Source: Frankia tisae (GTDB lineage: Bacteria; Actinomycetota; Actinomycetes; Frankiales; Frankiaceae). Taken from it: 54,176 nucleotides of DNA. The translations under genes were made by a program, and so were the position numbers. The notes beneath the pieces were generated by a model, which was not told where the DNA came from, made no database searches, and saw nothing but the letters and a program-made list of their open reading frames with translations. Where the stretch lies: NCBI RefSeq assembly GCF_025403405.1, contig NZ_JANEZT010000002.1:1-54176 (forward strand), read 5' to 3'. Shown here one piece after another: positions 5,985 through 53,374 of this stretch (position 1 is its first letter; each line of letters starts with the position of its first letter).

Positions 5985-8078
5985 GTGTTTCCCCGCCGAG
6001 GCTGCGTCCGGCTACCCAGCCGAACCGCCCGCCGACTCCTCGCTCACGTTCTGGCGCTGGCCGCCGTCATGCTCACGGTGGCCGGGGTGGCGCTGACCAT
6101 CGCCAACCGGCACGCGGCCGTCACGACCACCGGGCAGCGGCCGGACAGTCCGTGGACCCAGATCGTTCCGGCCGCCGGCTTCATCATCGCCGGCTGGTTG
6201 CTGGCCACCCGACGCCCGGAGGTCGTTTTCGGCTGGCTGGCGCTGGCCGCCGGTCTCGGCCACGGGTTCGCGGTCGCCGGCATCGAGTGGGCCCTGTTCT
6301 CGCACGATGGGCGGCACCTGCCCGGGGCGGGGCTGGCGCTGTTCGCCGCGGGTGTCGGGGAACCGGTGGAACCGGTGGTGATGGCGACGACGTGGGCGGC
6401 GTTTCCGAGCGGGCGTTTCCCGCCGGGCCGGATCGGTCGGGCGGCCGTCGTCAGCGTGGCCCTGTGCGCGGCCGGTTGGACGACCGGGCCGCTCGGGCGG
6501 CACACGATCCCCCATCCGACGCCCGAGTTCGCCGGGCTGCGCAACCCGCTGGGGATCGACGCGTACCCCGACTGGGGCGCAGCGGTGCTGTTTCCCGCGG
6601 GACTGCTGCTGGGCTCGATCGTGATGGTCCTGCGCTGGCGGCGTGCGCGAGGACGAGAGCGTCAGGTGCTGCGCTGGCTGGGCGTGGTCAACATCGGCGC
6701 AGTCGTGCTCACCCCGGTCATCGTCGCGCTGCCGGCCGGCGAGGTTCTCACCTCGATCGGGACGATGCTGCTTCTGATCGTCGTCGTCGCGGTCGTGCTC
6801 GCGAACCAGGTCTACGGGGTCGACGTCGTCCTCAACCGTGCCCTCGTCTACACCCTGCTCGCCGCGTTCGTGGCCGGGGTCTACGCGGCCGGGGTGGGGC
6901 TGCTCGCGCTGCTCGGAGACCGGGCCGGCGGGCCGTGGACGGTGGTGGCCTCGCTCGGCGCCGCCTTCAGCCTCGCCCCGGCCCGGTCCCGGATCCAGCG
7001 GTCGATCAACCGTTTCCTTTACGGCCATCGCGATGAGCCGTACACGGTGGTCAGTCAGGTGGCGTCCCGCCTTGAGGCCGCGGGCAGCGTCGAGCAACTG
7101 CTGCCCGGCCTGCTCGAGGCCGTCGTCGAGGCGCTGCGACTGCCGTGGGCGGCCGTCGAGATGCTGGGGGACAGCGGAGTCACCCGCCGTATCAGTCACG
7201 GCGACGGCACCGGGCGCGCGGGCACGATCCAATTCCCGCTCGTCCACCAGGGTCGCGACATCGGATCGCTCGTGGTCGCGCGGCGCGTGGGGGAAGCTGA
7301 GCTGGACTCCCGGGAGTCCCGACTGATGGAGCACATCGCGGGCCAACTCGCGGCTGCCGCGAGCAACGTCATGCTCACCGAAGATCTGATCCGCTCGCGC
7401 GAACGGATCGTCAGCGCGACCGAGGAGGAACGCCGCCGGCTGCGCCGCGACCTCCACGACGGTCTCGGTCCCGTGCTCACCGCGGCCGCGACCAAGGTCG
7501 ACGCCGCCCGCAATCTCGCTGGCCGCGACCTCCCGCGAGCCGACGACCTTCTCGGCGCGGTCCGGCGCGACCTGACCACCGCGCTCGACGACCTGCGCCG
7601 CCTCGTCCACGCGCTGCGACCCCCCGCCCTCGACGACCTCGGGCTGCTGGGCGCGTTGCGCGAGCATCTGCGGCACTCCGGCATTCCGGTGACGCTCTCG
7701 GCGCCCGACACGATGCCCGAGCTGCCGGCCGCGGTGGAGATCGCCGGATACCGGATCATCACCGAAGCCGTCGCCAACGTCACCCGGCACGCCCACGCGT
7801 CGCACTGCGTGGTGTCGATCGAATGGGGGGAACGCATGACGGTGGAAATCCGCGACGACGGCACGGCCCGGACCGCCTGGGCGGCCGGCGTCGGCCTGAC
7901 GTCCATGCGCGAACGGGTCACCGCGTTGGGCGGTCGCTGGACCGCCGGGCCCACCCCCGATGGCGGCCGGGTGTGCGTTGAACTCCCGCTCTCCCTCGCC
8001 GGCAGCGCCGTGCCCGAGCAACCTCCCCTCCCCGCTCAGATCGCCGCGGCCACCACCCTCGTCGGCGCCGCCGGATGA
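5985..8078 (+). CDS. Multi-pass sensor histidine kinase (NarL-type)
   Basis: About 697 residues. The first ~330 contain about eight hydrophobic segments. A GAF-like region follows (PYTVVSQVASRLE to the VVARRVGE strand), then the HisKA_3 motif EEERRRLRRDLHDGLGPVL with His about 491, and a GHKL ATPase (ITEAVANVTRHAHA, EIRDDGTA, VGLTSMRERV). The frame is open from 5886; I prefer GTG 5985 because the preceding residues look like translated leader DNA. The stop overlaps the start of the response regulator by 4 bases (ATGA), so the pair is translationally coupled. The input signal is unknown. Confidence 0.87.
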   Translation: MFPRRGCVRLPSRTARRLLAHVLALAAVMLTVAGVALTIANRHAAVTTTGQRPDSPWTQIVPAAGFIIAGWLLATRRPEVVFGWLALAAGLGHGFAVAGIEWALFSHDGRHLPGAGLALFAAGVGEPVEPVVMATTWAAFPSGRFPPGRIGRAAVVSVALCAAGWTTGPLGRHTIPHPTPEFAGLRNPLGIDAYPDWGAAVLFPAGLLLGSIVMVLRWRRARGRERQVLRWLGVVNIGAVVLTPVIVALPAGEVLTSIGTMLLLIVVVAVVLANQVYGVDVVLNRALVYTLLAAFVAGVYAAGVGLLALLGDRAGGPWTVVASLGAAFSLAPARSRIQRSINRFLYGHRDEPYTVVSQVASRLEAAGSVEQLLPGLLEAVVEALRLPWAAVEMLGDSGVTRRISHGDGTGRAGTIQFPLVHQGRDIGSLVVARRVGEAELDSRESRLMEHIAGQLAAAASNVMLTEDLIRSRERIVSATEEERRRLRRDLHDGLGPVLTAAATKVDAARNLAGRDLPRADDLLGAVRRDLTTALDDLRRLVHALRPPALDDLGLLGALREHLRHSGIPVTLSAPDTMPELPAAVEIAGYRIITEAVANVTRHAHASHCVVSIEWGERMTVEIRDDGTARTAWAAGVGLTSMRERVTALGGRWTAGPTPDGGRVCVELPLSLAGSAVPEQPPLPAQIAAATTLVGAAG

Positions 8079-48896: not shown

Positions 48897-49049
48897 TCAG
48901 CCGAGTTTCCACAGCCGCGTCGCCCGGCCGTATCCGGCGGTGGCCACGGTTCTGCCGTCGGGGGCGATCGCCACCCCGTGCACCGCCTCGGTGCGGCCGG
49001 TCAACGTGGCGAGCCGGGCCGGACGCGCGGGATCGTAGCCGCCGCTGGT
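48897..49049 (-). pseudogene. C-terminal remnant of a WD40-repeat protein
   Basis: About 50 codons reading LATLTGRTEAVHGVAIAPDG, RTVATAGYGRATRLWKLG then stop: a clear last WD40 blade (GH-like start, APDG turn, RLW end). The frame is closed upstream at 49050-49052 and no earlier blades are present. Ends 7 bases from the membrane-protein stop. Confidence 0.75.
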
Positions 49050-49056
49050 TCAGCAT

Positions 49057-49620
49057 TCAGGAGGCTGGGACACCTGCGATGGCCAGTGCGCAGCCCACCA
49101 CGTACAGCACCACGAAGATTGCCGGGAGCACCTGCTCTACCTGGGTCAACGGCCAATACAGGGCCCTGTTCTTCCCCTCGCCCAGGGCCTGCCACTCAGC
49201 CAGCCAATATGGCGACGCGGGCAGTCGCTCCTCCATCACTCCGATGACAACGTACTTGGCCGTGTTGAGCTGTCGATAGGACCTGATCATCCAGAACCAC
49301 GTGCTTGCCTGGATGACCCCGGCGATTAACAGAACGAAGATCAGTAGGGATTTTGGCTCCACCTGGCGCCAGACCACGCCGATCCCGGTCAGCAGGCCGG
49401 TGTTCAGGGTAAGGAAGAAGGCGTTGGACAGGGCACGGCGGGCGCTGATCCGGTCGGCCATCTCGACGTAGATCTTGTATTGCTCGAGGAGCATGTTCTG
49501 GGCTGCCTCCGACGAGACGGCACCGGTGCCGCCGACGGCGGGGTTCCACAGGGTCGGGCGCACGTTATTGATGTCGGGCGTGTCGGTCCGGAACCAGCCG
49601 CGCAGATGTTGGATGGCCAT
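49057..49620 (-). CDS. SLATT/RipA-like integral membrane protein
   Basis: 187-residue membrane protein. An N-terminal soluble part ends in a helix YKIYVEMADRISARRALSN, directly followed by two hydrophobic segments (about 66-84 and 91-112, the second with TWFWMI) and later a third (163-182). The arrangement of an Arg-rich helix, Asn, then paired helices fits SLATT-type two-helix effector domains and the related RipA-type membrane proteins. ATG 49620 has GAGAGGA at 5-base spacing. It lies 107 bases downstream of a SLOG gene on the same strand, the association that defines SLATT proteins. Proposed role: pore-forming effector switched by a nucleotide signal (family-level inference). Confidence 0.68.
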   Translation of the reverse strand: MAIQHLRGWFRTDTPDINNVRPTLWNPAVGGTGAVSSEAAQNMLLEQYKIYVEMADRISARRALSNAFFLTLNTGLLTGIGVVWRQVEPKSLLIFVLLIAGVIQASTWFWMIRSYRQLNTAKYVVIGVMEERLPASPYWLAEWQALGEGKNRALYWPLTQVEQVLPAIFVVLYVVGCALAIAGVPAS

Positions 49621-49727
49621 GGCGTCCTCTCGATCATCGGCCTTTCCCCGGACGACGGCGACTGTCGCGCCGAAGGTGACGCTGCTTGTCACTGCCGGGA
49701 CTACGGCCGCCGAAGTGTTTCGTCCGA

Positions 49728-50216
49728 CTAGTTCCGGCGGGCCGCCCCCGCCGGCCAGATGATGTCTACGGGAATTCCCTCTCGCTGGGCCTGCAGTACC
49801 AGGTCGGCGGTGCCGCCACCTTTCCCGCTGGGAGGTTGGCCGTCCCAGATAGCAACGAGACGTTCGGCGCGGCGCAGGAGCATCGTATTGGCGGCCTCAT
49901 AGGCTTGGCGGTCAGCGGTCGGGGAAGGCATCACGCACACCTCGTCGGCGGTTGCAAGCAGCCGGTCGAAAGTCTCAGCATGGTCGTCCGGGACCGTCGT
50001 CTGCCGGTAGTCCTGGGAGGGGACCACGACAACCAGCCTGCCCCCGGCAGCGAGGATGCGCTCAGCAAAAAGAGAGTCCGCGCCCTGGGCGATACAGGAG
50101 ACGCCGATCAGGTCAGTATCCGCGTACGGCCTGAGTAGTTCGACAAGGGCCTCACGGATGAGGGAGGCACTGTCCTCCGTCAGATCCATGTGCCCGGTCA
50201 CGGCGAGACTCGTCAC
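49728..50216 (-). CDS. SLOG-fold (DprA/LOG-like) nucleotide-binding protein
   Basis: 162-residue Rossmann-type protein of the SLOG superfamily. Seen: first strand and loop SLAVTGHMDLTED, then VSCIAQGADSLFAERILAAGGRLVVVVPS (the GAD helix and following strand typical of LOG/YspA-like members), a middle helical part with DEVCVMPSP, and RLVAIWDGQPPSGKGGGTADLVLQAQ near the C-terminus. SLOG domains bind or process nucleotide ligands and often pair with membrane effectors. GTG 50216 has AGGGAG 5 bases before it. The next gene downstream is the SLATT-like protein. Confidence 0.8.
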   Translation of the reverse strand: MTSLAVTGHMDLTEDSASLIREALVELLRPYADTDLIGVSCIAQGADSLFAERILAAGGRLVVVVPSQDYRQTTVPDDHAETFDRLLATADEVCVMPSPTADRQAYEAANTMLLRRAERLVAIWDGQPPSGKGGGTADLVLQAQREGIPVDIIWPAGAARRN

Positions 50217-50264: not shown

Positions 50265-50549
50265 TCATCGGCGGCTCCCGCGTGGAGGAACCGGCCCGGG
50301 ACGGCGAACCGTGCCCGAGTCCTTATAACAGGTGAGCTGGCTGCGACGCTGCCCAGGGCGTTTCCGATGTACCCCGGGGCTCGTGGGGTCAGCTTGCCGG
50401 AGTGCCGCGCCCGCCACCAGTATCAGCGTGTTCGGCAGCAGCTCCGTCGCGTCGGCCGGGGTGGCGGTTCGGCGCAGCGCATAGCCCAGGAGCTGGTGGT
50501 ACGTCTCGTTGTAGACCGCTTCGAATCGGTGACGAGCCTCCTCGCTCAT
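50265..50549 (-). pseudogene. ECF sigma factor, frameshifted N-terminal remnant
   Basis: Starts MSEEARHRFEAVYNETYHQL, LGYALRRTATPADATELLPN, the region-2 start of an actinomycete ECF sigma factor. After NTLILVA the reading degenerates into Arg/Pro-rich sequence with no region 2.4 or region 4. A frameshift plus deletion is the simplest reading. Confidence 0.65.
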
Positions 50550-51114: not shown

Positions 51115-51286
51115 GGAGGGTTCCTTCCGGTAACGGCGGCCGCGTCCCATGCGCGATCGACCACGTTCAGGATGCAGTAGGTCGCGGGCGGCCGGTATCC
51201 AGGCCAGCGCTGGATTCGGCTGCGTGCCAGCGGCTGCGTGCTGGCACGGATACCGGTCCGAAATCCGGCTCGAGCATCATGGTCAG

Positions 51287-53374
51287 GTGAGCCAGCCGAC
51301 AGTGGGTGCCCGTGCACGTTGGCCTGTCTTCGTTGCTCCGGCGGTTTTCGTGCTGACCGGTGTGCTGCGCGCGATGCTGGCGTTCGGTCCGGCCAGGGTC
51401 GGATCGCCCGTCGGCTGGGCGGCGAGCCTCGTCCTGTTCGCCCCGTCGATCGCGTTGGGCTGGTTGGTGAGCCGGCGGCGACCGGAGAACCCGGTGGGGA
51501 TCGCGCTGGCCTGGGTGGGCACGGCTCCGGCCGCGGTTTCGGCCGTGGAGGACTGGGGAGCGACATTACGGACTGGGCATCCGTGGCCCGCCGCCCGGTT
51601 GATGTTCGTCGCCCAGCTCGGGGTCTGGGTATGGAACGCCGCCGGTTTCGGCGCGCTGTGTCTGTTCTTCCCGGGCGGCCGGCTCGCTGGCCACTCCCGG
51701 GCGGTCGCGTTGACGGCGCTCTGCGCGGCGGTCGTCCTGAACGCCGCGGTATCGCTTGACCCCCATGCCCGCGCCGTCGACGGAACCGTGCTGGTCAATG
51801 ATCTCGTGCTGCATCTGCCGGCCGGGGCGCGAACGGTGGAGCTCGTGGTTGCCTTCGCCTGTTTTCTCGGCGCGCTCGCGGCGGTCGTCGCCGTCCCGTG
51901 GTCGCGCTACCGCCGGGGTGACGAGCTCACGAGACTGCAGATGCGCTGGTTGCTGCTGGGCGCGGGCACCGTGCCGGTGCTGCTCGCGATCGGCTGGGCG
52001 GCCGAGGCGTTGGGCGGCTCCGACGGCTCCGCGTTCGGCTCGTTCATGATCGCGCTGCTGGCCGTGGTACCGACCACGGTGGCCGTGGCGGTGTTGCGCT
52101 ACGATCTGTTCGACATCGACCGGCTGCTGAGCGCATCGGTCAGCTGGCTCCTCACCGTTCTGACCTCGGCGGCGATCTTCGCGCTCGCCGTGTATGGCGT
52201 CGGGTACGCCGTGACGGCGACCGTCACCACGTCTGCGCTCAGGACGACAGTGGCGGCGTTCGTGACCGCGCTGTGCCTCCTGCCGCTGCACCGCCGGCTC
52301 ACCGACACGGTCGGTCGTCTGATCGACCGGGACCGCACCGTCGTGCGGGCTCAGGTCGGCGAGTTCGTCGGCCAGGTGCGCGACGGCGAGGCTGAACCGG
52401 AACGGACCGAAGCGGTGCTGCGCACGGTCCTGCGCGATCCCGGCCTGCGGCTGCTGTTCCACCTGCCGGGCGGCCTGGCCGGCAGCTACGTCGATCTCGA
52501 TGGTGGCCCGGTCGACCCGCTCTCGCTGGCGCGGCATGGTGATCGGGAAGCCACCCTCGTGCTGCGCAGCGGAGCATCCGACACTGGGATGATCGTCTTC
52601 GGCGCTCCGTCGGCCCGCCGGATGCGACGCGCCCGGGAAGCCGTGGCCCAGGCCCGCCTACCGATCGAGGTGACCCGGCTCCGGCTGGAACTACGCGGGG
52701 CGCTGGAGGAGGTACGAGCCAGCCGCTCGCGCCTGATGCTGGCTTCCACCGAGGAACGCCGCCGGCTGGAACGGGACCTGCACGATGGAGCCCAGCAGCA
52801 GATCGTGGCCGTAGGGATGCGCCTGCGCTCGATCCAGCGCCAGCTCCCGCCGTCGCATCGTTCCCACCACGAACTCGACGCCGCGGTCGAGGCGCTCGAA
52901 GGTACCGTCGCCGACCTACGTCGACTCGCGCACGGAATCCGCCCGGCCCGGCTCACCGACGGCCTCGGGCCCGCTCTGCGCGCGCTCGTCGCGGCCAGCC
53001 CGGTCCCGGTGGACCTGGTGGTCGCTGACGTCGAGCCGCCGGAACTCGCCGCCACCACCGCGTACTACGTCGCCGCCGAGGCGCTGGCCAACGCCCTGAA
53101 ACACGCCGGAGCCGGTCACATCCGCGTCGAACTGGCACACGAGGACGGTTCTGTCCGGGTCGAGGTGTCCGATGACGGCACCGGGGGAGCCTGCTCCGGG
53201 TTCGGGCTGACCTCGCTACGGGACCGGGTGTCCGCCGCCGGTGGCACCCTGCGGATACACAGCCCGGTCGGGGAAGGCACCACGATCAGCGCGGAGATAC
53301 CGGCGCGGAACCCGCCCCCGACCGCTGTGACCCCTGACGCCCACCACGAACCGGAGCTCGCATGCGAATCGTGA
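51287..53374 (+). CDS. Multi-pass sensor histidine kinase (NarL-type)
   Basis: 695-residue kinase similar in plan to the one at 5985-8078. About eight hydrophobic segments fill the first ~370 residues. A linker leads to the HisKA_3 motif STEERRRLERDLHDGAQQQI with His about 499, then a GHKL ATPase (VAAEALANALKHAGAGH, EVSDDGTGG, GFGLTSLRDRVSAAGG). GTG 51287 chosen; the upstream ~46 codons look like leader DNA. It overlaps the regulator start by 13 bases, so both are made together. Confidence 0.88.
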   Translation: MSQPTVGARARWPVFVAPAVFVLTGVLRAMLAFGPARVGSPVGWAASLVLFAPSIALGWLVSRRRPENPVGIALAWVGTAPAAVSAVEDWGATLRTGHPWPAARLMFVAQLGVWVWNAAGFGALCLFFPGGRLAGHSRAVALTALCAAVVLNAAVSLDPHARAVDGTVLVNDLVLHLPAGARTVELVVAFACFLGALAAVVAVPWSRYRRGDELTRLQMRWLLLGAGTVPVLLAIGWAAEALGGSDGSAFGSFMIALLAVVPTTVAVAVLRYDLFDIDRLLSASVSWLLTVLTSAAIFALAVYGVGYAVTATVTTSALRTTVAAFVTALCLLPLHRRLTDTVGRLIDRDRTVVRAQVGEFVGQVRDGEAEPERTEAVLRTVLRDPGLRLLFHLPGGLAGSYVDLDGGPVDPLSLARHGDREATLVLRSGASDTGMIVFGAPSARRMRRAREAVAQARLPIEVTRLRLELRGALEEVRASRSRLMLASTEERRRLERDLHDGAQQQIVAVGMRLRSIQRQLPPSHRSHHELDAAVEALEGTVADLRRLAHGIRPARLTDGLGPALRALVAASPVPVDLVVADVEPPELAATTAYYVAAEALANALKHAGAGHIRVELAHEDGSVRVEVSDDGTGGACSGFGLTSLRDRVSAAGGTLRIHSPVGEGTTISAEIPARNPPPTAVTPDAHHEPELACES

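Follow-up and report, generated by a model that had tools for sequence, protein, structure and literature searches.

SLATT stands for SMODS and SLOG associating 2TM effectors. As outlined in PMC9503650, a SLATT domain has been proposed to act as an ADPR-regulated membrane effector, and YpsA-like SLOG domains have been proposed as sensors of cyclic ADPR. In Thoeris systems, according to the account in PMC12847820, ADP-ribose signals produced by TIR enzymes activate an effector, which may be SIR2-SLOG, TM-macro or a caspase. Here we examine a SLOG–membrane protein gene pair from Frankia tisae, located in a window of 54,176 nucleotides (the whole stretch of DNA that was analysed, contig NZ_JANEZT010000002.1). 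We regard the pair as a variant of the TIR/SLOG nucleotide-linked conflict systems and, probably, as a small antiviral alarm that acts on the membrane and is triggered by a nucleotide. The literature searched gave no description of a SLOG–8xMP pair; the paper that defines SLATT could mention one.

Results

The two genes of the window

Both genes are open and lie on the minus strand, as the first-pass annotation had described. The first (49728..50216; GTG start at 50216, stop ending at 49728) encodes a SLOG-family protein of 162 aa, which carries the stretches VTGHMDL and GADSLFAE already quoted there, and the ribosome-site-like run GGAAGGGAG stands shortly upstream of its start. The second (49057..49620; ATG start at 49620, stop ending at 49057) encodes a membrane protein of 187 aa. 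A spacer of 107 bases (49621..49727, minus strand) separates them and includes a ribosome-site-like GAGAGG ahead of the ATG. A longer reading frame from a GTG at 49692 was considered for the membrane protein and judged less likely. In alignments, the SLOG protein matches all 10 columns that are invariant in 37 relatives and 20 of another 23 that show ≥90% conservation, and the membrane protein matches 23 of the 25 columns invariant in nine relatives. Given this agreement at nearly all conserved columns, neither gene appears to be decaying, although functionality is not thereby proven.

The surroundings, earlier called a patch of remnants, broadly deserve the description. A WD40-repeat remnant of 50 aa (48900..49049, minus strand; Pfam WD40 E 3.1e-5, below the cut-off) begins directly past the stop of the membrane protein gene, and a weak sigma-factor-like remnant (50265..50549, minus strand; NCBIfam E 0.0042, far below the cut-off) is found upstream of the SLOG gene. 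Both are neighbours outside the module. Elsewhere in the window, a histidine kinase at 51284-53371 is matched by positions 739-1386 and 6153-7991 (E 6.6e-25 and 2.6e-25).

The best of many TIR queries against the window reached E 0.011, which is chance level, in agreement with the earlier remark that no obvious nucleotide synthase is present. A single ThsB_TIR match occurs in the window genome (92.59% complete), within a frame of 1371 codons that lies on a different contig from the pair. No PADLOC model matches either window protein, and neither protein has a PADLOC or Pfam match to a SIR2-SLOG, TM-macro or caspase effector.

The SLOG protein and its relatives

Fold comparison supports the SLOG assignment made at first pass: the window protein has the SLOG Rossmann-type fold and matches the SLOG regions of YpsA, DprA, ShosA, LOG, ThsA and TRPM2. 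Its Pfam score is below the SLOG cut-off (YpsA 15.1 bits vs 27.7), and YpsA matches at E ≤0.01 occur in two of 38 rows of the SLOG alignment (best 8.1e-4). Alignment A1 omits L016, L017, L022, L029, L047 and L049, and alignment A4 holds 37 rows out of 57 loci.

A search of genome contigs yielded 28 SLOG-relative loci. Relatives with 59-71% identity occur at 24 Streptomyces/Kitasatospora loci (L024-L047), and all 13 same-genus genomes contain one or more. The window genome has a second SLOG paralogue (L017/L088, C78:13119-13586), 44% identical; the stretch examined around it showed no 8xMP. Regulator-like genes that we read as XRE/TPR adjoin 22 of the 94 SLOG rows (e.g. L003-L005, L024, L025, L027, L028, L037); the one member scanned gave no Pfam family. 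NUDIX genes adjoin six rows, and 33 rows adjoin none of the tested neighbour classes. The XRE/TPR-type neighbours point to a second life of the SLOG family, and together with the NUDIX or unclassed settings they count against a purely immune role.

The membrane protein

The earlier description of the second protein as a helical membrane partner is upheld by its match to the Pfam family 8xMP (PF24838), at E 1.8e-41 and 141.6 bits (cut-off 30), or E 1.3e-41 using the ATG start. A single-chain model of moderate quality (pLDDT 75.4) predicts three helices (residues 38-86, 92-132 and 158-182), of which the first two are long and the last is C-terminal. Fold comparison of this model gave nothing above the helical-bundle background. 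The predicted layout is consistent with a membrane oligomer, but it is no proof of a pore.

The proposed SLATT identity calls for correction. The protein is a helical membrane partner of SLOG, but it scores as 8xMP, with no Pfam SLATT or DUF4231 match above the cut-off. When 10 rows of the 8xMP alignment were scanned, SLATT_1 appeared in two (best E 0.045) and DUF4231 in one (E 0.29), amid families at chance level. Profile-profile comparison of this set with SLATT_1 gave E 0.057. A deeper 8xMP set reached E 0.0023 (probability 12.5) against a three-row SLATT_1 profile and E 0.0075, 0.6 and 0.099 against the three rows singly, and the lowest E among 37 single membrane-protein controls, left from 40 after three 8xMP proteins were removed, was 0.02. 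None of these tests establishes the window protein as a SLATT. NCBIfam gave no match of the window protein to RipA, the Francisella protein that we take to be a relative of the 8xMP family.

Pairing of SLOG with 8xMP

At first pass, a lack of co-occurrence in other genomes had been named as evidence against the proposed module; co-occurrence is in fact conserved. Using profiles built for this analysis, a SLOG was found within 2.5 kb of 8xMP at 29 of 81 8xMP loci, or 25 of 77 when the four loci found via the window or SLOG (L002, L041, L045, L046) are set aside. The other loci are nine from L071-L085, six viral ones, 51 from L153-L206 and 11 from plasmids, the last standing for 14 records, with four Leptolyngbya copies counted as one; L080-L085 (weak) and L204-L206, missed by our profile, were left out. 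Nearly all pairs (28/29) share a strand, and in 25 the gap measures 17-173 bases by profile ends. SLOG is downstream of 8xMP in 26 pairs and upstream in three, including the window. In the G129 genus, taken as Streptomyces from its kinship, 21 of 51 loci are paired, or 21 of 54 when L073, L078 and L079 (no SLOG) are added, these loci being part of the genus's 8xMP matches. Plasmid neighbour counts refer to the first 14 of 31 plasmid records with 8xMP-like stretches.

Conversely, no SLOG lies near 8xMP at 52 of the 81 loci, and 66 of the 94 SLOG rows are without 8xMP; each gene is therefore dispensable to the other. The distribution of 8xMP is patchy: one of 13 same-genus genomes, two of 35 genomes of the order, 19 of 393 of the class (15 over the cut-off) and 73 of 392 of the G129 genus (67 over the cut-off), with further copies on plasmids. 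Among the 15 genomes of the class over the cut-off, contig positions place SLOG and 8xMP side by side only in the window genome and in G033, which belongs to the same family.

In the tree of 81 8xMP rows, the SLOG label changes 10 times vs 23.9 in shuffled labels; each of 500 shuffles needed more changes, and at least seven are unavoidable given the starred branches. In the tree of 94 SLOG rows, built by a quick method, the label for 8xMP changes eight times vs 24.5, with at least four forced. Near-copies among the rows favour such clustering. The window 8xMP falls in a starred group of six rows (100/97) with mixed neighbours, and the window SLOG groups with three 8xMP-paired SLOGs (SH-aLRT 82, unstarred). 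Two very divergent 8xMP rows, L079 and L203, pair up at the end of a long branch. Judged from these sequence comparisons, the pairing is not chance. Since changes are forced on both gene trees, the partnership was gained or lost several times, and the change counts fit either direction.

Genes beside 8xMP

Neighbours of 8xMP were taken within ~2.6 kb and grouped in clusters; names beyond Pfam are our reading. A ThsB-type or other TIR cluster is present at 16 of the 81 loci, a DrHyd/S1-like protein at five and another TIR-like protein at three, 24 loci combined. The total rises to 52 only when weaker TIR-like labels are counted, mainly FLRxF, a membrane protein that we name after its YVLYLRxF-type motif and that is found at 30 loci (e.g. 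L074, L078, L041, L046, L208). The FLRxF cluster was built by chained similarity, and 29 of its 33 members contain [YF][LI]RxF. The FLRxF-type protein of L208 is annotated as a "transferase", and two members scanned gave no Pfam match. Profile comparison with ThsB-like TIRs gave a weak likeness (E 3.4e-4, probability 38%), so that TIR is here an unproven label for FLRxF. At least one clustered neighbour or SLOG occurs at 59 of the 81 loci and none at 22, among them L173, where the next gene is a CAP12-type TIR (E 4.8e-26).

A Novosphingobium plasmid carries the run TIR-8xMP-SLOG, its TIR matching ThsB_TIR at E 3.1e-6; both TIRs scanned (L207, L231) exceed the ThsB_TIR cut-off. TIR-8xMP pairs are found in L209, L210, L211, L214 and L216, and such pairs exist without SLOG, which suggests that 8xMP may there read the signal alone. 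In L209, a Paenarthrobacter plasmid, a TIR-caspase pair lies within 4 kb of the TIR-8xMP pair. A third gene from the TIR, DrHyd or FLRxF clusters is near 22 of the 29 SLOG-8xMP pairs and absent from the remaining seven, including the window. At one of the seven, L175, we read one of the frames on the other strand as a caspase-like gene. By the same kind of reading, an HSP70-like gene follows SLOG-8xMP at L159, L166 and L175, preceded at L159 and L166 by a DnaJ-like gene.

SLOG relatives with other effectors

The conflict setting suggested at first pass is seen in part of the relatives, which have TIR, caspase and SLATT-type genes beside them. TIR-caspase-SLOG runs occur on the Bacillus plasmid pBS72, with overlapping genes, on a Rhizobium binae plasmid, with a second TIR, and on an Agrobacterium plasmid; L218, L231 and L232 are loci of this type. 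A Methylorubrum plasmid (L233) has the order SLOG-TIR-caspase-TIR. For these plasmid runs, the names TIR and caspase come from the annotation in the records. In the same genus as the window, genes of the caspase cluster adjoin SLOG in L020, L021 and L023 (Pfam was run on L023). At L020 a CATASP-like gene follows (E 1.4e-4, below the cut-off). Also speaking against a purely immune role, no TIR-effector run directly adjoins the plasmid SLOGs of L235, L236 and L237; L235 has a TIR gene ~2 kb away.

SLATT-type domains occur with SLOG in several arrangements. In Caballeronia, SLOG and DUF4231 (E 3.8e-7) are joined in one 577-aa protein beside a TIR gene. L224 combines SLOG and a sub-cut-off SLATT_1 in one 529-aa frame, beside a frame read as TIR-like, and in L220 SLOG is convergent to a SLATT_1 gene.

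Discussion

We propose that the two genes encode a compact module of two proteins that belongs to the TIR/SLOG nucleotide-signalling immunity network, and we put the probability of this at roughly 0.55. Against this reading count the lack of a TIR in the window, the many loci where SLOG and 8xMP occur apart, the 22 8xMP loci with none of the partner types, the TIR-8xMP pairs without SLOG, the moderate 8xMP model with its uninformative fold comparison, and the absence of a PADLOC hit. From the evidence above we infer a ligand, contact between SLOG and 8xMP, an oligomer and a membrane effect. The soluble SLOG would bind, or bind and process, a nucleotide of the NAD or ADP-ribose type whose level goes up when the cell is infected or stressed. 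SLOG would then control 8xMP, a putative membrane oligomer, which may alter the permeability of the membrane so that the infected cell stops. In some relatives, the adjoining TIR gene could make the signal. Since no TIR gene lies alongside the window copy, the signal would there have to be made at another place in the cell, unless SLOG were itself to act on the pool of nucleotides.

How SLOG takes part is a more tentative matter. Its YpsA type, its recurrence by TIR genes, its fusion to SLATT-type domains and its pairing with 8xMP are most simply explained if SLOG is the part of a membrane effector that faces the ligand. It is possible, though we hold it with limited confidence, that SLOG, as a free-standing protein, serves as the receptor for a TIR-type ADP-ribose signal and thereby gates an oligomer of 8xMP. 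The pair would then be a split counterpart of the SLOG-SLATT fusions and a bacterial parallel to TRPM2, with SLOG serving as a plug-in for 8xMP, caspase or SLATT-type effectors in TIR systems.

The existence of TIR-8xMP pairs without SLOG makes the opposite role the strongest rival, if an unlikely one: SLOG may hydrolyse or soak up the TIR-made signal and so keep a signal-reading 8xMP, or caspase, switched off. LOG-type hydrolases belong to the SLOG fold. PGGxGTxxE is the motif of LOG phosphoribohydrolases; the window protein, however, reads GKGGGTADLV and lacks it. The Type IV Thoeris caspase is directly activated by N7-cADPR, as described in PMC12847820, yet the TIR-caspase runs found here carry SLOG as well, as would be expected of a damper. 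Conversely, frames that join SLOG to DUF4231 or SLATT_1 suit a receptor better, and a damper would have little to do at the seven SLOG-8xMP loci that showed no neighbour of TIR type.

Those seven loci also bear on a somewhat less probable explanation, that the window pair is the non-working remainder of a larger TIR-8xMP-SLOG or FLRxF-8xMP-SLOG locus. The pair sits among remnants, lacks the third clustered gene that most pairs have, and shows the rare SLOG-first order. However, six other pairs are equally without a third gene by the same test, and both window genes keep nearly all conserved columns and their ribosome-site-like runs. It is improbable that the pair has no link to defence, with SLOG serving as an ordinary enzyme of nucleotides or as a helper in transport and 8xMP as a protein of the envelope: SLOG relatives in every same-genus genome (8xMP in one) and the reported need for RipA, our presumed family relative, in Francisella growth inside host cells would fit, but the patchy 8xMP distribution, its plasmid copies and the TIR, caspase and SLATT-type partners of relatives argue otherwise.

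If the two-protein immune module is the right reading, several TIR immune systems of Pseudomonadota and Bacillota (on weaker labels, of Actinomycetota as well) would have one small SLOG in common as their third part, with the executioner swapped between protease and membrane proteins. The 8xMP family would gain a testable function, and a SLOG sensor and its membrane part would be seen to work as two separate proteins.

Among the closest known systems, Panoptes and CBASS Cap15 (S-2TM-beta effectors) resemble the pair as two-gene, nucleotide-controlled membrane effectors (PMC12657218), but their sensor and membrane domains are others and a nucleotide synthase is present. The Pfam entry for 8xMP (PF24838) names no SLOG partner; the window protein lies far above the family cut-off. 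The TRPM2 channel also bears a SLOG region. Thoeris shares with our locus the SLOG domain and, beside some relatives of the pair, a ThsB-type TIR, and its type II TM-macro effector acts on the membrane (PMC12847820), as proposed here for 8xMP. In our case, by contrast, SLOG forms a protein of its own, 8xMP is the effector and no TIR lies in the window. Compared with SLOG-SLATT systems, 8xMP is a different Pfam family; the likeness is that SLOG adjoins a small helical membrane protein and that the same SLOG family is joined elsewhere to DUF4231 or a SLATT_1-like stretch.
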